From a virus: a stretch of 31,311 nucleotides of DNA. The notes below the pieces were generated by a model. It was not told the origin of the DNA, ran no database searches, and was given only the letters and a program-made list of their open reading frames with translations. Position numbers and translations under genes: made by a program. The DNA lies in the IMG/VR virus record IMGVR_UViG_3300047668_000227, positions 1 to 31,311 of that record, one strand, 5' to 3'. Shown here piece by piece: positions 4,756-22,630 of this stretch (position 1 is the first letter of the stretch; each line of letters starts with the position of its first letter).

Positions 4756-7700
4756 ATGGCTTGTAAATACGTAAAAAATAATGGAAATGTAGTAGGAGCT
4801 TTAGCGCCAAATGGTAAAGAGTCTGAGTTGTTTAAAAAATTAAGAAAGTCTACAGGTAGTATTACTAAAGCTAAAGCAGTTTATGATACATTTCGTTCTG
4901 ATAAATTTAAAAAATGGTTTGGTAAAAACTGGGAATCTAGTACAAAGAGTGAATCTGCTGTAGATTCGTTTTATATAGACGATAATGGAGAACCTCTTAT
5001 TATTGCAGCTAGAGGTGAGTTTGTAGTGATGAATTCTGATATGGAAACGCAAGTTGTTAAAGGGGCTACAAATCCAATAAACACTAGTGGAATGTCTTTA
5101 CTACAGGAAACTAATTTAACTCGTATAGCAGTACAAAAATTTAAAGACAGCAAAAACTCTAAGAATTTTGATACTAATAAATTTTTTAATCCTAGTAATC
5201 CCGGAAAAGATAAAGGACTGTTAGCTGAAAAACTTCTTTCACATGCGTTTACTGGTATTGATGATAACAATTTATCTATAGGAAGAGAACTCTTTGACAT
5301 ATATAAATCATCTGGGTTTAAAAAAATGCTAGAACAAATGCCAGAAGGAGTTGCATTTAATCCTGCAAAAAGAGTAGGACAAGCATTCCTTACAATATAT
5401 GATCAGTGGGAAGACGTTGTTTCTCCTTATACAGGTAATTTAGAAAGAGAAGGGTGGAGAAGTAGAATTGCAATTAAATTAGAAGAGCTTGATTATAGTT
5501 TAAGAGATGATGTAGGTGAAATTTATACTATAGATGATACTCCAGTACGTATACATAACATATCTAGACTACAAGAAGATCCTAAAACTAAATTATCTAG
5601 TCAAGCTAAAAGTATACTTAGTAATATAACAGAAAATTCTACAATTTATGGCCATAAAGTTGATATGGAGATGTCAGACGTGTATAGCGCTGTAGCAGAA
5701 GCTACTGTAGGAGAAATGACTTATACTGGTATGGTTCAAAAAATGGAAAATATAGTAAAATATAAACCTAAATTGGCTCCTATTTTAGATCGTCTTAAAT
5801 CTGCTACCGCACAAGAACAAGCATCTTTGTTTTCTAATTTTGCAATGGCTTATAAAAACTTTTTATTATTTAAAGCTAAAAAAGTTTTTGCTTTTGATCA
5901 TCAACAAGGGAAAGTAGATTCTTTTGTACAGACTTCAATGATAAGCTCTAATCAAAGTGACACAGGTAAAAAGGCTATACAAGATTGGTCTAACATTTCT
6001 AAAGAATATGATACTCCTAATGAAAGAGCTCTTTATAAAGTAACTCCAAATGAATTAGGAGAAGAAGTATTAACAGTTTCTAAAAAGAAAAAAGCAGCTA
6101 TTACAAAAGCATTTGATAAAATAGATAATGCTACTAGAGAAAACCGTAGTGCTGTAGGACCAGTACCTGCAAAAGCTATTGAAGGTTTAGGAGAATTTTT
6201 ATGGGAATTAGGAATAAGTTATGGACCTACTTTAGAGTCTACCAAAGAAAACTTAACAAAATACTTTGAAATAGGAGATATTAGAAAAAATACTGTAGTA
6301 ACCGGTATGCCTTTGTTTGTAGAATTTATGACTGGTGCATCTAAAACTAAATCTGCTGGAAGAAATATTAGAGGACTTAAAAATATAGTAATAAAAGACG
6401 GACCTGCTACAAGTATATACTCAGATCAAAAATCTTTAATACAAAGAATTTCAGGTATTAGCTATTTGTTTGAAGAGCAACCATTTGGATCTTTTATTAG
6501 TGGTACAAATAAACAATATTGGCCTATAAATCAACCAACTCCATTAGATGAATTACAACAGACTATAAAATCTCCAGAACGTGCAGATAAATTTTTATTA
6601 AATTTATTAGAAGACCCTATGAATAATCCGGGGAGTTCTTTAGAGCATACTTCTCCATTAATACAGGCTTTACATCATGGACAAGGTTTAGCTAGAGAAT
6701 CTTTTAAAATAGAAATAGTAGACTCATTTAAAAGTGCAAATGAATCTATAGCTACTACTGACTACTCAAATCAATCTGAAAAAGTTTCTTTAATTGTTAG
6801 GCTTAATGCTTTTGCAAATAGAGGTGATGAAAATCTTATGAAAATTGCTGTTCCTACACAAGCAGATAGACAACGTTTAGATTTTGTTACTATACCTAGA
6901 TTTACAAAATCAGTTTTACAAAAATTTGGTGTAAATACTGATAGAAAAACTATTTTAGAAAGTATTATAATACAAGATTTAGCTAGAATGAATCAGGCTA
7001 AAGAAGAGATAAATAAAGCAATAGATACAAATGATTATAGTCAGTTAGTAGAAGGGTATCATTATTTTAAAGGACAAGATCCTAGTACAGGATATACAGG
7101 ACCTAGAATAGACGGGGCATTTGATAAAACTAAAAGAGGTACTGCATTTACTATGCCTCAAATACAAAACTTAGAAAACACTCCATTAGAAAAAGGTTTA
7201 GATATGTCTGATGAAGTTTTTAAATACATAAATGACGACTCTAAAAGTAAATATAAACGATCAAAATTAGGAAAAACGTTTCAAAAAGAATTAAATAAAA
7301 AAGTAGAAGCATTAGAAGATAAATTAAAGCAGTACGAAAAAAATGTACAGGATGCTATAGATACTTATGGAATAAATTTAGGCCAAGATGTAGATTCTAG
7401 AATGTCTGTTAAAAAAGATTTTATATCAGATTTTGTATTTAATGATTTTGTTGGTAGAACAGAATTAAATAAACTTTATAGAGGTGGTATGAGTTATTCT
7501 AAAAACCCTGCTGATTTTTATAAACGTGCGGGTTTATTAAATACTCCTGGAACAAAATTGTTTATAAAGGGTATGACTGAACAAGGGGGTGGAGTTTATG
7601 GAATGATGCCAACTTACAATGAGACTGTTATAAAAGATTTTGATTTTAACAATAAAGAAGCAGCTAATTTAGTTGCGGATAATATGTATAAATCACTAAT

Positions 7701-10700
7701 TGCACAAAAAGTTCCTGCTAATAAAGCTAAAAAAATTGCTGATAGTTATAGATCAGTTAACAAAACAGATGCGCAGGGGTTTATATCTATTGATATGTAT
7801 AGAGGTATAATGATGGGATTAGGTAAGTGGAACAATAAGCTAGACGGGCAAGCATATAGAAATGAAAAAAAAGGTATAGGTTTTGTAACTGATGAAGGAA
7901 AAGCTAGGCCTATATACCCTGTAAAACCTTATCATGAAGAATTAATGTTAGATAATGGAAGAATGACTATGTATATGAATAAGAATTCATATGTAACAGT
8001 CACTAAAGAACTCTCAGCTAACATGCCTCAGCTTGAAACAGTTAGACAGGCTATGGATGATAAAGGAATACATGTAGTAAATGTAGAAAGCGCTACAAAA
8101 GGAGCTAGAAAGAATGTTTTAGATTTACAAGCAGGAAAAACTTTTGATGATGCAACTATAACTACTATGGACTCTACAAAACTTAGAATACCTCAACAAT
8201 ATAACAGCCCTTCTAAAGGTACAATTACATTTTCTAGACAAGTAAGAAAAAATATAATAACTAACTTAGAAAAAACTCCTAATAGTGTATATATGTTAGA
8301 CGGTAGTCCTGAGTCAGGAAGTGATTTATATAACTTATATCAAGAAACTGTTGCTGCTAATATTAAAGAAGACACTAAAGCTTTAAATAATCTTCTTAAA
8401 ATACCACAATTAAAAAAAGCTGTAAAAGGAACAAAAGAATATGCAGACGCTAAATTAGAGCATTTACAAGCTGTTAGAGAAGAAATAAGAAGTCAGTTAA
8501 TACAAAAAGATTTACCTTCAAATTATTTAGATGCTTTAAACATTGTCCCAGAAGGACAACATGATTGGGGATTTGAAATTCCTTTAGCTTTTCCAAACTA
8601 TCAAGCTAAATTTGAACAAATATTTTTTGGTATATATAATAATGCTATTTTTAATCAAAAGTTAAAAGGAGTAGATTTAGTTCAAATAGCTGAGTTAGGT
8701 GGGTCCGGCACAGCTGGTATGAATGAGTTAAAATTCTATGATGGTAAAAATCTTGCAGAAGTAAAAATTAGAGCTAGTGCGTTAGGTTTACCTGCAGGAA
8801 CTAAAATAGAAGATGTTGATCCTTCTTTGTTAACTGTTATTGGATATAGAACTCCAAATCAAGGTAAAAACTCTTCATTAGTAATGAAAGTTGTAGAATT
8901 CTTACCTGAATCACATTCTAAAGCCATTATGGTGCCTGGAGCAATTACTGTACAACAAGGGGGTGATTTTGATGTCGATAAATTAAGTATAATTCTAAAA
9001 CAAACAAAAATGGTAGATGGTGTTTTAACTAAAATTACACCAGATTACTCTAAAAAAGATCCATCTAAGATGTCGAGGGAAGAAAGAGACAATGTGATAT
9101 TTAGTATAGCTGAATCTATCTTAACTGATCCTAAACATTTAGAAGAAGTTGTTTCTCCTTTAGACTCTAGAAGACTTGAGCTTTTAGCAGAAGAATTAAG
9201 AGATACTTCTGCAACGTTAGATTATAATAATCCTTTAGCAGAGCTTGATATGGAGTCTAGAAATAAAGAAGGACAAGCTTTAACAGGTCTTTGGTCTAAT
9301 ATGCTAGCAGGTAGAAATGTAGCTGAGACAGCTAACGCCTTAACTATACATGAAGATTACGCTCCTGTTATAAATTACGGTGAAAACCAAATAACATTTA
9401 ATTCTATAGGTAAAACTAGAGAATACGATCCTATAACAAATACTTTTACTGGTGATTACACAGATTTTAATATATCTATGTATTTATCTGCTGCAGTAGA
9501 TGCAGCTAAAGATCCAATACAGATTGATATAAATGATAATAAATATACAGTGCCAATTGCAGGATTAATGCTAAGTACTGGAGTTCCTGTAGAAGATGTA
9601 GTGTATTTTTTAGCACAACCTTCTATAAAAGATTTAATAAATAGAGCTAAAATAGAACAAAAGGGATTATCAAAACTTTTAACTCTGATTAAAAATGTAA
9701 CAGATTCTTCTATTAACGAGTTGCCGGTTGAAGAAAGAGCGCCTCTTAGAAAAAGAATAGAAACAATAAATTCTAATAGAGCTTTTATGCCTATGAGTTC
9801 TGAGATTTTAAAAACATCAGCTGCATTACCTAATATAGGATTAGACTCATCAGAGATTATAAATCAAGCAAAATATTTACATAATTTTGGACAACTATTT
9901 AAAGCTGGTAGACAGCTACAAACTGTATATAAAATAATAACTCCTGATAATATGTCTAATGTTAATGAAATATCTTCATTAATGTCATATTTAGATACTG
10001 AAAACACATATTTAGAAGGTAGTACTAACGATATTATACAAGGTGCAGAGCAACTTATATCAGAAAATAGAGCTGACATTAATAACCCATTAAATGCAAT
10101 AGCTTTATCGTATAGAGGTATATTAGACACAATGTTAGAAGCAGGAGAAAACATTGGTTTTATAAATAATAGACCTTCTTTTTATACATTTAAAAATGAA
10201 CTTAAAAAAAGTATTAATCAGCATTCATTAAGTGCAGACCAACATAAGTTTATAGACAAAATGTTATTTTTAGATATGATGACTAGGCCTGAAAGTCCTT
10301 TTGTAAAAAGTAAGCTTATATCTAAGAAAACTTTTGAGTCTTTATATACTGATCCTACAAATAATATTATTACTAAGTTAAATAATATTAAAATTAAGTA
10401 TCCTAAATTAGCTACTAATAAGTTTGTAGAGTTATTAAAGCCTGATGTGTTTAATCAAGAAAAAAAGAATGGAGTATATCTAATTAAAATGGAAACTTTA
10501 TTAGAATCTTCTGCAAATAGTAAAAACATTATATCTAACGCATTATTAACTATGGTTACTAATCCTGGAAGATACGCAAATGATAAAAACAACATAGAAG
10601 AGTTAAAAGAAATAAAACAATTTGCTAAAATTATAGTTGCAAATCAATTATATACTAAAGGGTTTACTCTTGGGGCTGGAACTTATATGGATCTTATTCC

Positions 10701-11286
10701 ATCACAGTTTTTATCTACAAATATGTTGTTTGAAAATCAAGACTCTCCTGTAACTTATTATTTACAAGCGTCAGAAGCATCAAAAACTCAAAATTATTTT
10801 ACAAGTACAGATTTTATGCATACATTTGTAAGGAATTTTGGAACATTAAAACCTGGAGGATTTCCTTTATTACCATCAGTTCCTTATAAAGAAAATAAAT
10901 TCAGAGATAAGAAAAACAAAATGGCATTTAAAGAAACAGTATTTTTTACTCAGAACGATAACAGTGTATTTGATAAAAATTTAAAGTTTACAGATTATTT
11001 TATTACAAACCCCCCAATGGGAGACCCTATGATTTATGTAAGAACATCAATTCAATCTAACGGTATTGCTGGTTATCAAATACTACAAACTACAGGCCTT
11101 CCTGGAAAGTTAAGTGAAGTAGGAGTTACTCAAAGCACTCAAGATTCTATGCTTACTAGGAGTGGTAAATCTATAATGCCAAAAAAAGCTGAAGGTGATT
11201 TCATAGCTAATAATAAAATAAACGCACTTCCTGAATTTGTAATGAAACCTGTTAAGGATGTAATTGAAAAATTTTGTAAAATATAA
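4756..11286 (+). CDS. Giant single-chain DNA-dependent RNA polymerase-like protein (crAss-like gp50/YonO type)
   Basis: This 2176-residue protein probably transcribes early phage genes after entering the cell with the DNA. The decisive motif is DFDVD at residues 1404-1408, the metal-binding DxDxD loop of the second double-psi beta-barrel. It is preceded by YRTPNQGK (1364-1371), which parallels the NRAPT segment of cellular beta' subunits about 40 residues before NADFDGD. Upstream, IFNQKLKG and VESATKGA (about 1110-1117) resemble segments I recall from crAss-like phage polymerases. The approximate catalytic region is 900-1450. The N-terminal and C-terminal parts are unassigned. Near the N-terminus, FKKWFGKNW resembles a recurrent motif of phage polyvalent proteins. 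The protein starts MACKYVKNNG, shared in pattern with the next gene. The leader is A/T-rich (AAAAAATATATAG) without Shine-Dalgarno. Family known from phi14:2 gp66 and YonO; assignment from motifs only. Confidence 0.8.
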   Translation: MACKYVKNNGNVVGALAPNGKESELFKKLRKSTGSITKAKAVYDTFRSDKFKKWFGKNWESSTKSESAVDSFYIDDNGEPLIIAARGEFVVMNSDMETQVVKGATNPINTSGMSLLQETNLTRIAVQKFKDSKNSKNFDTNKFFNPSNPGKDKGLLAEKLLSHAFTGIDDNNLSIGRELFDIYKSSGFKKMLEQMPEGVAFNPAKRVGQAFLTIYDQWEDVVSPYTGNLEREGWRSRIAIKLEELDYSLRDDVGEIYTIDDTPVRIHNISRLQEDPKTKLSSQAKSILSNITENSTIYGHKVDMEMSDVYSAVAEATVGEMTYTGMVQKMENIVKYKPKLAPILDRLKSATAQEQASLFSNFAMAYKNFLLFKAKKVFAFDHQQGKVDSFVQTSMISSNQSDTGKKAIQDWSNISKEYDTPNERALYKVTPNELGEEVLTVSKKKKAAITKAFDKIDNATRENRSAVGPVPAKAIEGLGEFLWELGISYGPTLESTKENLTKYFEIGDIRKNTVVTGMPLFVEFMTGASKTKSAGRNIRGLKNIVIKDGPATSIYSDQKSLIQRISGISYLFEEQPFGSFISGTNKQYWPINQPTPLDELQQTIKSPERADKFLLNLLEDPMNNPGSSLEHTSPLIQALHHGQGLARESFKIEIVDSFKSANESIATTDYSNQSEKVSLIVRLNAFANRGDENLMKIAVPTQADRQRLDFVTIPRFTKSVLQKFGVNTDRKTILESIIIQDLARMNQAKEEINKAIDTNDYSQLVEGYHYFKGQDPSTGYTGPRIDGAFDKTKRGTAFTMPQIQNLENTPLEKGLDMSDEVFKYINDDSKSKYKRSKLGKTFQKELNKKVEALEDKLKQYEKNVQDAIDTYGINLGQDVDSRMSVKKDFISDFVFNDFVGRTELNKLYRGGMSYSKNPADFYKRAGLLNTPGTKLFIKGMTEQGGGVYGMMPTYNETVIKDFDFNNKEAANLVADNMYKSLIAQKVPANKAKKIADSYRSVNKTDAQGFISIDMYRGIMMGLGKWNNKLDGQAYRNEKKGIGFVTDEGKARPIYPVKPYHEELMLDNGRMTMYMNKNSYVTVTKELSANMPQLETVRQAMDDKGIHVVNVESATKGARKNVLDLQAGKTFDDATITTMDSTKLRIPQQYNSPSKGTITFSRQVRKNIITNLEKTPNSVYMLDGSPESGSDLYNLYQETVAANIKEDTKALNNLLKIPQLKKAVKGTKEYADAKLEHLQAVREEIRSQLIQKDLPSNYLDALNIVPEGQHDWGFEIPLAFPNYQAKFEQIFFGIYNNAIFNQKLKGVDLVQIAELGGSGTAGMNELKFYDGKNLAEVKIRASALGLPAGTKIEDVDPSLLTVIGYRTPNQGKNSSLVMKVVEFLPESHSKAIMVPGAITVQQGGDFDVDKLSIILKQTKMVDGVLTKITPDYSKKDPSKMSREERDNVIFSIAESILTDPKHLEEVVSPLDSRRLELLAEELRDTSATLDYNNPLAELDMESRNKEGQALTGLWSNMLAGRNVAETANALTIHEDYAPVINYGENQITFNSIGKTREYDPITNTFTGDYTDFNISMYLSAAVDAAKDPIQIDINDNKYTVPIAGLMLSTGVPVEDVVYFLAQPSIKDLINRAKIEQKGLSKLLTLIKNVTDSSINELPVEERAPLRKRIETINSNRAFMPMSSEILKTSAALPNIGLDSSEIINQAKYLHNFGQLFKAGRQLQTVYKIITPDNMSNVNEISSLMSYLDTENTYLEGSTNDIIQGAEQLISENRADINNPLNAIALSYRGILDTMLEAGENIGFINNRPSFYTFKNELKKSINQHSLSADQHKFIDKMLFLDMMTRPESPFVKSKLISKKTFESLYTDPTNNIITKLNNIKIKYPKLATNKFVELLKPDVFNQEKKNGVYLIKMETLLESSANSKNIISNALLTMVTNPGRYANDKNNIEELKEIKQFAKIIVANQLYTKGFTLGAGTYMDLIPSQFLSTNMLFENQDSPVTYYLQASEASKTQNYFTSTDFMHTFVRNFGTLKPGGFPLLPSVPYKENKFRDKKNKMAFKETVFFTQNDNSVFDKNLKFTDYFITNPPMGDPMIYVRTSIQSNGIAGYQILQTTGLPGKLSEVGVTQSTQDSMLTRSGKSIMPKKAEGDFIANNKINALPEFVMKPVKDVIEKFCKI

Positions 11287-17772: not shown

Positions 17773-17808
17773 ATATATTATTTTATTTTATTACGGTTAA
17801 ACATATTA

Positions 17809-17827
17809 GGGGAGCATTACACTCCCC
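17809..17827 (-). terminator. Hairpin in the 105-bp gap before the exonuclease gene, possible terminator
   Basis: GGGGAG (17809-17814) pairs with CTCCCC (17822-17827) around a 7-nt loop. On the minus strand the sequence after it is TAATATGTTT, only weakly T-rich, so termination may be partial, or the hairpin may be an RNA-processing or stability element. It follows the stop of the 343-aa gene (17878). The rest of the gap (17773-17877) holds no other gene or clear promoter. Confidence 0.5.
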
Positions 17828-17877
17828 CTCTATGCATCAATTAAACACGAACATGTTAATCAGACAGTTCTTCTCAA

Positions 17878-18909
17878 CTAGTCTTTCATGTACTTTCTAT
17901 ACTCAGGTTTAACTTGAACTTTAAAAGTATACAATTCTCGGTTATTAATCTGTATTTGTTCCCTACATTTTACTTCTAGTGATTTAAAACATCTTGAATC
18001 TAACTGCCCTTTCTCATCAAAGTATTTAATAGCCTCTTCAGCATTTTTTCTAGATAAGTTGTATATATTATGTTTATCCATCCAGTACATAACATCTTTA
18101 TTCCTGTTAAACTTATAAGAAACATTATCCAACATGGTAGCACTTTCATATAATAAATAAGGCTCTCCTGTAGGGTCAATAGTAGGAATAATCTTACCTG
18201 CCATTTCTACATCGTCATCAGTAGCGGAATAACTATCAGCCATTTTTGTAATATCATCTATTAACTGTTGAGTTATAGGAATTCTATTAGCTGATTGATT
18301 AAGAATAGTATCAGTACCAATAACTTGCATTTCTTCATTTTGAATTAAACTTGCTAATTCTAAAGACATACTACTAAATATAAAAGAATCAAAAGGAGCG
18401 CTTTCATAATTCATATTATGTTGATAGTTAGTATCCTGACTTCTACTTTCTAAGAGAACATCATTATCAGTTTTATCATGATAGTCCTGAGTTAAAGGTC
18501 TATGGTCGTGACAATAGTACCCATTAGACACCTTAAACATTAGTTTAGTTTGAGGAATATTAGGAATATTGGTATAACTATCATAAAAATTAGTATGAGG
18601 AATAATAAAATCAGCTTTCTCATAATCATTAGTAACAGAAATCTTATGCTCTTTAAGAGAAGCCTTAAGTCTATCAGTTGACACATTATGCATAGGTAAT
18701 ATAAAAGCTCTTTTAACTGTAGTTAAATCAGAAGTTGTTTCTGTAGTTAAAAGATCTTGTATTGTAGTCCATTGAGTTTGTGACTCAGACAAATAAACAT
18801 CCACTACTTCTGAATTTGTACAAAATCCCACATCATTTATATCTGTAAATCCTAAGTCTTCTAAGGTCTCCTTGCTTGGGGAGCCTATATGTACATTCTT
18901 ACTGGCCAT
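17878..18909 (-). CDS. Unknown protein translationally coupled to MoxR-type ATPase
   Basis: The protein has 343 residues and I recognise no family. Residues about 60-105 (KRAFILPMHNVSTDRLKASL, then YEKADFIIPH) read like one alpha/beta unit. The middle is rich in D, N and S (DNDVLLESRSQDTNYQ), and the end is mixed and basic. No membrane segment or signal peptide is seen. The start codon shares a base with the stop of the ATPase gene (TAATG at 18907-18911), a strong sign that the product works in fixed proportion with the ATPase. It could be a substrate, target or adaptor of the MoxR-VWA pair; this is inference from gene order only. Confidence 0.75.
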   Translation of the reverse strand: MASKNVHIGSPSKETLEDLGFTDINDVGFCTNSEVVDVYLSESQTQWTTIQDLLTTETTSDLTTVKRAFILPMHNVSTDRLKASLKEHKISVTNDYEKADFIIPHTNFYDSYTNIPNIPQTKLMFKVSNGYYCHDHRPLTQDYHDKTDNDVLLESRSQDTNYQHNMNYESAPFDSFIFSSMSLELASLIQNEEMQVIGTDTILNQSANRIPITQQLIDDITKMADSYSATDDDVEMAGKIIPTIDPTGEPYLLYESATMLDNVSYKFNRNKDVMYWMDKHNIYNLSRKNAEEAIKYFDEKGQLDSRCFKSLEVKCREQIQINNRELYTFKVQVKPEYRKYMKD

Positions 18910-20084
18910 TATTTCACAGTCATTTTAATGATAGCTGGATTCATCATCATTTTATTAAACTTAGACTTATTACCGTTAAATATAGTTCTAACCACTAAAT
19001 ACTTTAAATCGTCAGTTAAATAGTCTAAAGTGCACAGCTTAACAAGACGATCTTGCACTTTTGCAGTTACGCTGTCCGTTTTAGAGAAAGCAACAGCAAA
19101 GTTAGCTACACGAGTGGCTAATAAACTTGCTATATCAGCTCTATATGAATCATCTTTACCAATACACTCTCTCAACTCTAGTAAAACCTCGTCTGGTCCT
19201 GTAACTAATTCACGGGGAGTTACTAATTTATCTAGCTTATTATTGATAAATGTAGTAAACATAGACGCAAACTCGTTGCCTACCGAGCCTTCACCAATCA
19301 TTTGTACTAAAGGTAACTGATCTTCGAACTTAGGTATACTTGATATACTGTTAAAGAACGTTGAAATAGATCGAGCATTAGTTTCTTGAGTAACTAATTC
19401 TGGATGCATTAACAAAAAGTTTATACATCTAGTATCCATGTTATTCTCTTCTGCCCAACGAGCCCATACATTTATATCAAACTTAAGGTTTGCTGTAATG
19501 TATCTAGTTTTCTGTGCAGGATCAGTACTATTAACCATATAATCACCATTATCCGGATTTGCCGTTAAGATTATGTGCCAATCTTTTGGTAACGTCCATG
19601 AAATGTAAGTTTGACGATCTACTAATTCCATACATGCTTGTATAAACCTCATATCTGCACGATTCCAGTCATCTAGTAATAACACACCACCGGCTTTCTT
19701 ATCCGCTATCCATTCAGGAGCTGAATAAGACATTCTACTTTTACCTGTAGTTTGGAAGCCTAGCTTATGTTGAGCATCTACTGCAACTTCGTCTACCCAT
19801 TTACCTATCTTCTTACCTTCTTTTTCTTTCCACATTTGGAACTGCTTAATAGGAAAACCTACTAAGTCACCTAACTCTTCGATCTGAGCCAGATTAAGCT
19901 TAACAAAGTCTAGACCGTGTTTAGCTGTCATGTCCATAATACTGGTTGTTTTACCAATACCTGATTCCCCTACTACTTCTATAGCTACAGGCTTTTTACC
20001 CTGTGCCTGTAAGTGACGATTGTTTGTTATGATGTGTCCTACAAAATCTTGTAGTTCATCAATGTTTAAATTTACTTCATTCAT
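18909..20084 (-). CDS. MoxR/CobS-type AAA+ ATPase
   Basis: This 391-residue protein contains one AAA+ module. Walker A is GESGIGKTT (39-47), Walker B is VLLLDDWNRAD (134-144), with the DDxNRA form typical of the MoxR/CobS/dynein-midasin clade. Sensor 1 is LTANPD (173-178). The later half is helical, with no second ATPase domain. MoxR ATPases act with VWA-domain partners to remodel or insert metal into target proteins, and a VWA protein is encoded directly upstream (19-bp gap). It is coupled downstream by TAATG to an unknown 343-aa gene. The ATG at 20084 follows an A/T-rich leader (AACAAAACAATT). It is similar in arrangement to cobS-like genes known in other marine phages. Confidence 0.88.
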   Translation of the reverse strand: MNEVNLNIDELQDFVGHIITNNRHLQAQGKKPVAIEVVGESGIGKTTSIMDMTAKHGLDFVKLNLAQIEELGDLVGFPIKQFQMWKEKEGKKIGKWVDEVAVDAQHKLGFQTTGKSRMSYSAPEWIADKKAGGVLLLDDWNRADMRFIQACMELVDRQTYISWTLPKDWHIILTANPDNGDYMVNSTDPAQKTRYITANLKFDINVWARWAEENNMDTRCINFLLMHPELVTQETNARSISTFFNSISSIPKFEDQLPLVQMIGEGSVGNEFASMFTTFINNKLDKLVTPRELVTGPDEVLLELRECIGKDDSYRADIASLLATRVANFAVAFSKTDSVTAKVQDRLVKLCTLDYLTDDLKYLVVRTIFNGNKSKFNKMMMNPAIIKMTVK

Positions 20085-20103
20085 AATTGTTTTGTTTAAT
20101 TGA

Positions 20104-21276
20104 TTAGTTTAATTGAATTTTTATACCAGGTAACTCTTCGTTTATCTGGCATTTACTGCTGTGTACCCATAAAGCATTCTTTGGGCAGTTGTCTGGGTTA
20201 GGAGCTTCTCCATCCGTTAGGCATATAAACCCTGAGTATTTATTCTTAGGGTCATTGTAATGATCTACTACCGGCTGAAAGTATGTGCCACCTCTACCTT
20301 TTATCTCCCAAGACTTCTTAGGATCAAATACAGATACATCTGTTAGCTGAGTGTCAAATTGTGCAACAGTTATAGTGTTGCCAGTTTTATGCATGTGACT
20401 TAACTCGTGCATAAACTCTACTAACTCTTCACTGCTAACTGATCCTGAAGTGTCAACACCTACGAGCACGTGATTCTTATGCTTGATCTTTAGGCCCGGA
20501 TTACCAGAGTAACGTTTGTTATTCTTTCTTCTAAGCTTTTTAGTATAGACCGTAGAAGAGTTGTTAATAAACCTTTTAAGATACTGCTTCCAATTGAACT
20601 TAGGAGGCTCTAAAGTAAATAGTCTTTCTATTATCTCCGCTAATTCACCAGGGATAGTACCACATTGCTTCTTGATTTCCTCAGCAGTTTGTTTCATTTG
20701 ATGCTCATACTGTTTTTGTACTAGCTTCTTCTCTGCTTCAGGTAATTCACTGATCTCTTCCCATTCTTTATGGTCATACTGGCTATTGCCATCCATATCT
20801 CCTAGTAATTTCTGCAGTGCTTCATTATCTGAATTACCTTCTTGATCACAAGTATCATTAAGTATATCATAATATACTTTAGTACCCGCTTTCTTTGGTA
20901 AATATACACCAGGGAATGAATCTAACTTAAGACCACCTTCTGGTAACATGTGCTCAGCAATATATTGGTTGATTTCTATATCTGCCGCAATATTAAAAAG
21001 CTTTTTGTTAGGGTATCTGTCTGACAATATAATATGTCCAAAAGCTATATGTAATAACTCATGTTTTAGTAGGCCGTGTTGATGATCCTCACTAAGGCCC
21101 ATAAAGAAGTCTGGGTTAATAACTAACCTCATACCTATACCGTGTTTTCCTACACCTGCAGTAGCACAACTCATAGTAAATTGCTTTTGCAATCCTATAA
21201 GAAAGATACCGTAGAAAGGCTCTGAAAATATCAATGTCTTTGATATTCTAGAGAGTTGATCTTGATTGTTTCTCAT
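20104..21276 (-). CDS. DUF2201-like metallopeptidase-VWA protein
   Basis: The protein has 390 residues. The N-terminal region carries a zinc motif HELLHIAFGH (72-81), followed by AADIEIN (97-103), which may supply another ligand. The middle (about 140-225) is charged helical linker. The C-terminal VWA-like domain has a MIDAS motif DTSGS (275-279), a threonine in GGTYF (330-333) and LTDGE (353-357). This is the architecture of predicted metal-dependent peptidases of the DUF2201/COG3864 type, usually paired with a MoxR ATPase, as here. Whether the peptidase is active is unknown. It could be the target-recognition arm of the ATPase. It starts at an ATG 11 bp after the radical SAM gene. Confidence 0.88.
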   Translation of the reverse strand: MRNNQDQLSRISKTLIFSEPFYGIFLIGLQKQFTMSCATAGVGKHGIGMRLVINPDFFMGLSEDHQHGLLKHELLHIAFGHIILSDRYPNKKLFNIAADIEINQYIAEHMLPEGGLKLDSFPGVYLPKKAGTKVYYDILNDTCDQEGNSDNEALQKLLGDMDGNSQYDHKEWEEISELPEAEKKLVQKQYEHQMKQTAEEIKKQCGTIPGELAEIIERLFTLEPPKFNWKQYLKRFINNSSTVYTKKLRRKNNKRYSGNPGLKIKHKNHVLVGVDTSGSVSSEELVEFMHELSHMHKTGNTITVAQFDTQLTDVSVFDPKKSWEIKGRGGTYFQPVVDHYNDPKNKYSGFICLTDGEAPNPDNCPKNALWVHSSKCQINEELPGIKIQLN

Positions 21277-21287
21277 GTTTAATTAAT

Positions 21288-22148
21288 TTAAAATATATAC
21301 CTTATAGTGTTCCAAGGTATAATTTGGTTATGTAATTCTGTGAATTCTTGTATATACTCAGACTTAAGCCCAAGTTTGTATCGTACATTTTCTCCACCAT
21401 ATTGTGAAATCTTAGCTTCTTGCTTATTAGGAACCCAAAGGTCTTTCTCTGTTGCTGGGTGCGCAAGCATATTAGCTGTGTGTTTTTTAAAATTGTGTGT
21501 AAGAAATATAACTTCAGCTTGTACTCTGCTTTTATATTTTCTATCCACAATAGCATCAACACCTTCAAATAATCGTGCATAATCATTTCTCCAAGTGTCT
21601 GTGATAATAACTGGAGAGAAGTTTATGTGTACGTCATACCCTGCTTCTATAAAATCATTGATTGCTCTAATTCTATCGATGATCTTAGATGTGTTGGGTT
21701 CGTGTATATCAGCCATTTTTTGTGGCATAAGGCTGAATCTTATACGTATTTTACGTTCAGGATCAAAAGACAATAGTTTCTTATTTACAAATTTTGTTGC
21801 AAATGATCCCATTGCTATCGGATGATATTTAAAGAAATCAAATATACCTTCCCACTCATGATACTTAGCATGAAGACAAAAATCTTCATTACAACTAATA
21901 TCATATGTTGTGAATGTAGGATGAGTTTGATTAGGTTTATCTACCGGGGTAAAGAATGCGTGATTGTTTACAGCTGTTAATATATCTCCTGTGTTTGTTG
22001 CTACAGTAAGACCTGTTGGTCTATGTCTTTTCATGTAGCAGTAAGAACAGTTATATAAACAGCCATAACCAAAGCTTGGTGTTATAAAGTCTGTGGATCT
22101 ACCAGAAGGCCTTATAAGCATAGACTTTCGAGTGATCTTTTCTATCAT
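21288..22148 (-). CDS. Radical SAM protein related to spore photoproduct lyase (SplB-like)
   Basis: The protein has 286 residues. The [4Fe-4S]-binding motif is C30-x3-C34-x2-C37 in GCLYNCSYCYMKRH, the CxxxCxxC spacing of radical SAM enzymes. DISCNED places C86 where spore photoproduct lyase has its hydrogen-donor cysteine (CTSD). Further on, IRFSLMP and HEPNTSKIIDRI match the FEPGTS...RI signature I recall from SplB, followed by AGYDVHINFSPVI. It would be a cytosolic DNA-lesion or related radical enzyme; the actual substrate is unproven, since Bacteroidota do not make spores. The ATG overlaps the stop of the zinc-ribbon gene (ATGA). It is somewhat shorter than bacterial SplB (about 340). Confidence 0.82.
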   Translation of the reverse strand: MIEKITRKSMLIRPSGRSTDFITPSFGYGCLYNCSYCYMKRHRPTGLTVATNTGDILTAVNNHAFFTPVDKPNQTHPTFTTYDISCNEDFCLHAKYHEWEGIFDFFKYHPIAMGSFATKFVNKKLLSFDPERKIRIRFSLMPQKMADIHEPNTSKIIDRIRAINDFIEAGYDVHINFSPVIITDTWRNDYARLFEGVDAIVDRKYKSRVQAEVIFLTHNFKKHTANMLAHPATEKDLWVPNKQEAKISQYGGENVRYKLGLKSEYIQEFTELHNQIIPWNTIRYIF

Positions 22149-22402
22149 CTCTCGTCTCTTTCTGCTTCTGATCTATCCTCTGCTTTAGCATCAAGCATTT
22201 GATTTTTGTATTCATAATCTTCAATAGAACTTTCAAAGAACTCTTCACATTTTTCACATACAAATCCCTCTTCAGGCTCTGCGTGCTCTTTACATTCACT
22301 GCAAAGTCCATTTTTTATTTCTGAGTTACAACAAAAACTGCCTCCCTCATCTTGATTATCTGTGTAATCCGCTCCACAGCATGAGCTTACTAACTCTGCC
22401 AT
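22145..22402 (-). CDS. Small cysteine-rich zinc-ribbon-like protein
   Basis: The 85-residue protein has four cysteine groups: SCCGADY (7-13), FCCNS (23-27), GLCSECKEH (32-40) and VCEKCEEF (48-55). This suggests two zinc-ribbon or knuckle folds. It ends in a charged helix rich in D, E and R. Related small proteins with CCGA and CSECKE motifs are widespread in phages of Bacteroidota, without known function. It overlaps the upstream 62-aa gene by 13 bp and the radical SAM gene by ATGA. Confidence 0.75.
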   Translation of the reverse strand: MAELVSSCCGADYTDNQDEGGSFCCNSEIKNGLCSECKEHAEPEEGFVCEKCEEFFESSIEDYEYKNQMLDAKAEDRSEAERDER

Positions 22403-22578
22403 TCGTTTCCTAATTCTTCAATATTAGCCACAATAAGTTGAAATTGTTTTTCTGCCCAGAGTTCTGCAAAGCGTATTAATTGTTCTTCAGTATATTCTTG
22501 TTTTCCTCCAGGATTAAACACTGAGTCATCCTCATGCATTTCATCTGAGTGTAGAAATTCTTTTGCTGTTTTTGCCAT
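22390..22578 (-). CDS. Small acidic hypothetical protein, first gene after terminator
   Basis: The 62-residue protein is acidic, with a disordered-looking N-terminal half (SDEMHEDDSVFNPGG) and an amphipathic helix in the second half (EEQLIRFAELWAEKQFQLIV). No family was recognised. It is the first gene downstream of the terminator at 22602-22630 and overlaps the zinc-ribbon gene, so it heads the six-gene block. The leader is very A/T-rich (TTAATTAATTAAAATTAAAATT). Confidence 0.65.
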   Translation of the reverse strand: MAKTAKEFLHSDEMHEDDSVFNPGGKQEYTEEQLIRFAELWAEKQFQLIVANIEELGNEWQS

Positions 22579-22601: not shown

Positions 22602-22630
22602 AAAAAAAGGGCCCTTCCCTAAGAGCCCTT
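22602..22630 (-). terminator. Intrinsic terminator after the PDDEXK nuclease gene
   Basis: On the minus strand AAGGGC and GCCCTT pair (6 bp, 12-nt loop) and are followed directly by further T residues, making a run of seven. It is 40 bp past the stop of the nuclease gene and before the start of the 62-aa gene. The rest of the 92-bp gap (22579-22670) shows no clear -7 element, so how transcription restarts is not evident. Confidence 0.85.

Follow-up and report, generated by a model that had tools for sequence, protein, structure and literature searches.

Pairs of a MoxR-type AAA+ ATPase and a protein with a VWA domain are known from phages and from cells. In N4-like phages the pair is represented by gp24 and gp25, which belong to the 14 core genes of 25 such phages and are listed as being of unknown function (PMC4193335). 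A metallopeptidase-VWA protein paired with MoxR has also been described in jumbo phages, for which a role in virion assembly has been proposed (Iyer et al. 2021, PMC7824862), and the cellular vWA-MoxR ternary conflict systems combine MoxR and VWA proteins with a variable third protein (PMC7159879). Here we compare with these systems a six-gene block on the minus strand, at positions 17878-22578, of a 31,311-base virus contig from IMG/VR (the whole stretch is called the window below). The analysis supports a conserved module of three genes, encoding a metallopeptidase-VWA protein, a MoxR ATPase and a 343-aa protein, g343; the module is of a known kind and its third protein is new. The block also contains a gene for a protein resembling spore photoproduct lyase (SPL). 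A literature search, with most subscription journals lying outside it, found no paper on MoxR-VWA in crAss-like phages, the group to which the window is assigned below, and none on SPL in phages.

The VWA-MoxR-g343 trio is the only conserved unit of the block. A scan of IMG/VR with the MoxR protein gave 454 relatives, 80 of which were kept, and all counts over 81 loci refer to these together with the window's own locus. The relatives form two lineages, a near one with MoxR 84-100% identical to that of the window and a second one with about 70% identity. MoxR is found in all 81 loci, VWA in 78 and g343 in 77; the three genes are nearly always adjacent and keep one constant order, and the MoxR/g343 junction is a 1-nt overlap or a 1-2 nt gap in most of the 77 loci. 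A distant g343 query likewise recovered MoxR adjoining g343 in 13 of 13 loci, a few of which lie on contigs shared with the first set (the thirteenth is L077). The trio stays together also in loci whose replication module is otherwise replaced. Median identity between the lineages is 70% for MoxR, 62% for VWA and 37% for g343, compared with 29% for primase and DnaB, and the high values for MoxR and VWA point to either strong constraint on the pair or its transfer. The presence of the third protein in nearly every relative offers a direct handle on what the MoxR-VWA machine acts on. The features of the block and its borders are as follows.

17808-17828, minus strand: hairpin 3' of the block, between the 343-aa gene and a 5'-3' exonuclease gene (9 pairs, weak T-tract)
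17878-18909, minus strand: g343, 343 aa, the third protein of the trio (no domain call)
18909-20084, minus strand: MoxR-type AAA+ ATPase, 391 aa (phrog_1297)
20104-21276, minus strand: metallopeptidase-VWA protein, 390 aa (PF13203, PF09967, phrog_1314)
21288-22148, minus strand: SPL-like radical SAM protein, 286 aa, accessory (PF20903, TIGR03886, PDB 4fhc)
22145-22402, minus strand: Cys-rich zinc-ribbon-like protein, 85 aa, accessory, near lineage only
22390-22578, minus strand: 62-aa protein, accessory and sporadic
22607-22630, minus strand: intrinsic-terminator-like hairpin 5' of the block, ending the transcript of an endonuclease gene (10 pairs followed by TTTTTTT)

Both engine proteins look active, judging from their motifs. 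The ATPase of the window matches phrog_1297 (E 4e-32) and carries Walker A GESGIGKT, Walker B LLLDDWNRAD and sensor-1 TANP, thus displaying the Walker B pattern D-[ED]-x-N-R-A and the sensor-1 NP by which MoxR-like proteins were recognized. Among the 81 MoxR sequences Walker A and B are essentially invariant, with LLLDDWNRAD and TANPDN (including the sensor-1 NP) conserved. The VWA protein matches PF13203 (DUF2201_N, E 1e-17), PF09967 (DUF2201, E 1e-12) and phrog_1314 (E 1e-64), and contains a zincin motif, HELLHIAFGH, followed by a VWA domain with the metal-ion-dependent adhesion site (MIDAS) DTSGS; its predicted model matches the VWA domains of solved structures. The HExxH...GH and DTSGS residues are invariant in 30 of 30 dereplicated VWA sequences, so that the partner shows both the zincin HExxH and the MIDAS (DxSxS) of an N4 gp24/gp25-type pair. 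By these families and motifs the pair of the window is of the known N4 gp24/gp25 kind and is not new. The suggestion in the original prediction, made from the DNA letters and their open reading frames, that the two proteins remodel others is supported. In N4 (Schitoviridae) the ATPase and metallopeptidase-VWA genes are likewise adjacent and belong to the same families (PHROG 1297 and PHROG 1314), and in the Schitoviridae phage Presley the pair lies upstream of exonuclease V and DNA polymerase genes. The N4-type pairs differ from that of the window in that the order in Pollock and Presley is reversed, with the ATPase first, and in that identity to the window's proteins is below 30%. The jumbo-phage proteins share with the window an N-terminal metallopeptidase fused to VWA, but the passage on them in PMC7824862 reports no conserved third gene. 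In total, 455 phage records carry a relative of the VWA protein. Many RefSeq phage records name members of the phrog_1314 family 'HNH endonuclease' (e.g., L085:4965-6065 and L110:4935-6140), a name that looks wrong because the domains of the window's copy are DUF2201_N and a VWA with HExxH.

The third protein gave no usable match to known families in the searches made. g343 has no Pfam match above a cut-off, no consistent PHROG and no relative in a PDB sequence search, and neither Pfam or PADLOC matches nor a PDB fold match were obtained with a search set lacking VMAP and iSTAND profiles. No match to g343 was found by tblastn in INPHARED or by profile comparison with genes near MoxR-VWA in the isolated phages Moorella phage, AD45-P1, Pollock, PBS1 and S-TIM5. 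Its AlphaFold model is confident (pLDDT, the predicted local distance difference test, 89), and the whole fold is matched well by just four viral models, all of proteins from uncultured phages; one of them comes from a crAss-like virus, and a single phage, ctz6O13, accounts for two. On these searches, g343 is a new protein family. F7, a 375-aa protein, comes directly after g343 in the second lineage (L038:9796-11007 and relatives) and also in L039, with no copy in the window. Profile comparison of F7 with g343 gave a probability of 75% (E 2e-5 over 264 columns), making F7 a probable, fast-evolving tandem paralogue of g343, and the two fold matches in ctz6O13 fit such a tandem pair because F7 follows g343 in the second lineage. 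The window's trio resembles the cellular ternary systems in joining MoxR and VWA to a variable third protein. The third proteins of the cellular systems are VMAP or iSTAND and their VWA proteins often carry C-terminal effectors (PMC7159879), whereas the third protein of the trio is a phage family unmatched in these searches and its VWA protein has an N-terminal zincin. Residues ~61-105 of g343 form a short BRCT-like beta-alpha-beta-beta stretch, with partial Foldseek matches of ~36-43 residues (probability 0.72-0.89, E 0.3-1.2); a BRCT domain is unsupported by the Pfam profile (PF00533 gave no match at E<=1 in 20 of the related genomes) or by the PDB sequence search, and is kept as a weak lead. 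Human-gut contigs labelled 'Bacteriophage sp.' with MoxR and VWA were set aside, since their flanking open reading frames resemble ordinary genes of bacterial chromosomes and none corresponds to g343.

The three remaining genes of the block are distributed differently. The original prediction suggested that all six genes could work as one set, with host or phage complexes or damaged DNA as its target, and called for a search for their co-occurrence across phage genomes; the trio proved to occur together in nearly every relative, and the six genes did not. Upstream of the trio, the SPL-like gene is either wholly there or wholly missing: of the 35 near-lineage loci with a readable site, 27 have it and 8 lack it, and where it is missing the zinc-ribbon gene is joined straight to VWA. 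The second lineage mostly has a more divergent SPL-like gene at another place in the genome, kilobases from the trio. A relative on a short contig of a Bacteroidetes metagenome-assembled genome (MAG) is accompanied by a DnaB gene without the trio, and 71 of the 79 loci fetched with that copy contain none of the other four profiles searched; many of these contigs are short, so that single absences are weak evidence, and among the 17 with ~4 kb or more on each side MoxR occurs in 4. The zinc-ribbon gene is restricted to the near lineage, upstream of VWA with or without the SPL-like gene, and its short variants retain only part of the cysteines. The 62-aa gene has 5 family members in 5 of the 81 loci, some of them elsewhere in the genome. 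A single six-gene system is favored by the tight packing of the genes between two hairpins in the window and by the common adjacency of the SPL-like and zinc-ribbon genes in the near lineage; the separability of the SPL-like gene, and the absence of the zinc-ribbon and 62-aa genes from the second lineage or their relocation, largely refute it, and we regard it as highly improbable. The SPL-like gene is an accessory gene independent of the trio.

The SPL-like protein itself matches PF20903 (E 9e-26) and the solved SPL structure PDB 4fhc (E 1e-10), and thereby upholds, like the VWA and ATPase matches above, the gene assignment made originally. It is labelled SPL-like, with no equivalog call, because it falls below the curated cut-offs of TIGR03886 and TIGR04070 (for the latter, 89 bits against a cut-off of 400). 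In SPL the radical pathway involves an H-donor cysteine (C141 in the Bacillus protein, Bs, and C140 in the Geobacillus protein, Gt) and the tyrosines Y97/Y99 (Bs) (PMC5368176). As in Bacillus and Geobacillus SplB and the TIGR03886 family, the CX3CX2C motif, the two tyrosines and the H-donor cysteine are all found in the phage protein, and an alignment of 114 phage homologues with the Gt protein shows C30/C34/C37, Y36, Y38 and C86 to be invariant among the homologues. Of the 115 aligned sequences, one of which is the Gt reference, 107 have CX3CX2C spacing. The other eight, which differ from SplB and TIGR03886 in this respect, are second-lineage copies with CX3CX4C, an unusual spacing for radical SAM proteins (e.g., L048:15752-16585, L057:11654-12487 and L059:16219-17052). 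One SPL-like query had 217 relatives in IMG/VR, on marine viral contigs mostly without the trio (L117-L195, L100:1117-1971). Relatives also occur in 'bacterial' MAGs, where L100 is surrounded by phage-like genes; two contigs of the second phage lineage, L101 and L102, have been placed in Pseudomonadales and Campylobacteraceae MAGs. That SPL-like enzymes which keep their catalytic residues are so widespread among marine viruses was the least expected side result, and it raises the question of whether dense virion DNA in sunlit water forms a dimer so far tied to bacterial spores.

The window itself is assigned to a marine crAss-like phage by its giant RNA polymerase of the phi14:2 type. Three giant genes lie on the plus strand of the record, and the middle one (window 4756-11286) encodes a 2176-aa protein matching the phi14:2 virion RNA polymerase 6vr4 (E 1e-26), the match on which the assignment is based; crAss-type capsid, portal and terminase genes have not been identified in the 31-kb record. 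The minus strand contains a replication module comprising helicase, DnaB, Sak4, primase, Mre11-like exonuclease and endonuclease genes, then the block, and then the 5'-3' exonuclease gene. Obvious Shine-Dalgarno sequences are missing at the gene starts and the leaders are mostly AT-rich, which we take to fit a Bacteroidetes host. In the second lineage the trio is flanked by a RusA-like resolvase on one side and a PDDEXK exonuclease on the other, with a family B polymerase nearby, and across both lineages its neighbours are primase, Sak4, exonuclease, RusA, PolB and DnaB genes. As a separate observation, the second lineage has an RNA polymerase-like segment in single open frames of ~4400-5300 codons (the records behind L038, L046, L048, L051, L067, L070, L074 and L080).

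We propose, with a probability of about 0.5, that the trio is an ATP-driven remodeller of a replication or recombination complex with g343 as its adaptor or substrate, and that the SPL-like enzyme is a separate gene for the repair of ultraviolet (UV) damage. MoxR would assemble into a ring, as is usual for such ATPases. This ring would be coupled to the target by the MIDAS site of the zincin-VWA protein, which may also cut the target, and g343, made in step with MoxR, would serve as adaptor or dedicated substrate. Since the genes around the trio in both lineages include those for polymerase, primase, helicase, exonuclease and resolvase, a replication or recombination complex is favored over the virion as the target, and the fast evolution of g343 together with its tandem paralogue suggests that g343 faces a variable target. 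The SPL-like enzyme would most likely reverse thymine dimers of the spore-photoproduct type that arise when UV strikes the tightly packed DNA of virions. It should be noted that several points weigh against this proposal. The literature search found no target for any phage MoxR-VWA pair; the gene neighbourhood does no more than suggest a stage, and chaperones of late virion assembly could be encoded there as well; and the model of the VWA protein is only moderate (pLDDT 77). The SPL-like protein scores 323 bits against TIGR03886 (E 2e-96), under the 437.55-bit cut-off, and, differing in this from SplB, lacks the first ~62 positions of that model; no evidence was found that spore photoproduct forms in marine virions.

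A role for the trio in virion assembly or maturation, as a chaperone folding or cleaving a structural or injected protein such as the giant RNA polymerase cargo, would resemble the role suggested in jumbo phages and the one reported from the two-tailed archaeal virus ATV. Iyer et al. 2021 proposed that role for the same metallopeptidase-VWA and MoxR pair (PMC7824862), and the pair is common to N4-like phages and crassviruses, both of which package giant RNA polymerases. However, the genes lie in the replication module in both crAss-like lineages and in Presley, and phages that are not noted for packaging an RNA polymerase, for example S-TIM5, have the pair as well, leaving this explanation rather unlikely. 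A host complex could instead be the target, with the variable adaptors g343 and F7 bringing a defence or housekeeping protein to a constant MoxR-VWA engine for disassembly or cleavage. The pairing of a constant engine with a fast-evolving third protein (mean near-lineage identity of 90% for MoxR and 71% for g343; median of 30% for F7 in the second lineage) is in keeping with this, as is the similar logic of the cellular ternary systems (PMC7159879). Yet no host target is known, and the highly conserved C-terminal part of g343 fits binding to MoxR, VWA or another phage protein equally well, and we consider a host target unlikely. The block gave no convincing PADLOC match as a defence system. 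The furthest-reaching reading is put forward tentatively. Marine crAss-like phages may possess an AAA+ system of three or four components that is as yet undescribed, made up of the N4-type pair and a dedicated adaptor family (g343 and its duplicate F7); this system would take apart or cleave a protein complex while the genome is being replicated or the host taken over. Separately, in the same reading, a working spore-photoproduct-type lyase widespread in marine phages would mend UV damage in packaged DNA.

The layout of the block agrees with the original description in that all six open reading frames are confirmed on the minus strand, together with the overlaps and gaps between them. The 62-aa and zinc-ribbon genes overlap by 13 nt and the zinc-ribbon and SPL-like genes by 4 nt, gaps of 11 nt and 19 nt separate SPL-like from VWA and VWA from MoxR, and MoxR overlaps the 343-aa gene by 1 nt. 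Of the two hairpins said to bound the block, the upstream terminator is a good one, whereas the downstream hairpin is weaker and has a poor T-tract; the region has 6 terminator-like sites compared with 3.1 +/- 1.6 in shuffles. Hairpins comparable to 22630-22607 are present in the endonuclease-gene gap of about a dozen relatives, mostly closer ones and not all, and a G-rich hairpin in the 343-aa/exonuclease gap of several relatives, again not all. The remark that the ATPase and VWA genes are less AT-rich than their neighbours holds to a modest degree, with GC contents of 36.8% for VWA and 35.8% for MoxR against 31.8% for the window, but not with respect to the zinc-ribbon gene, which is higher at 38.0%.

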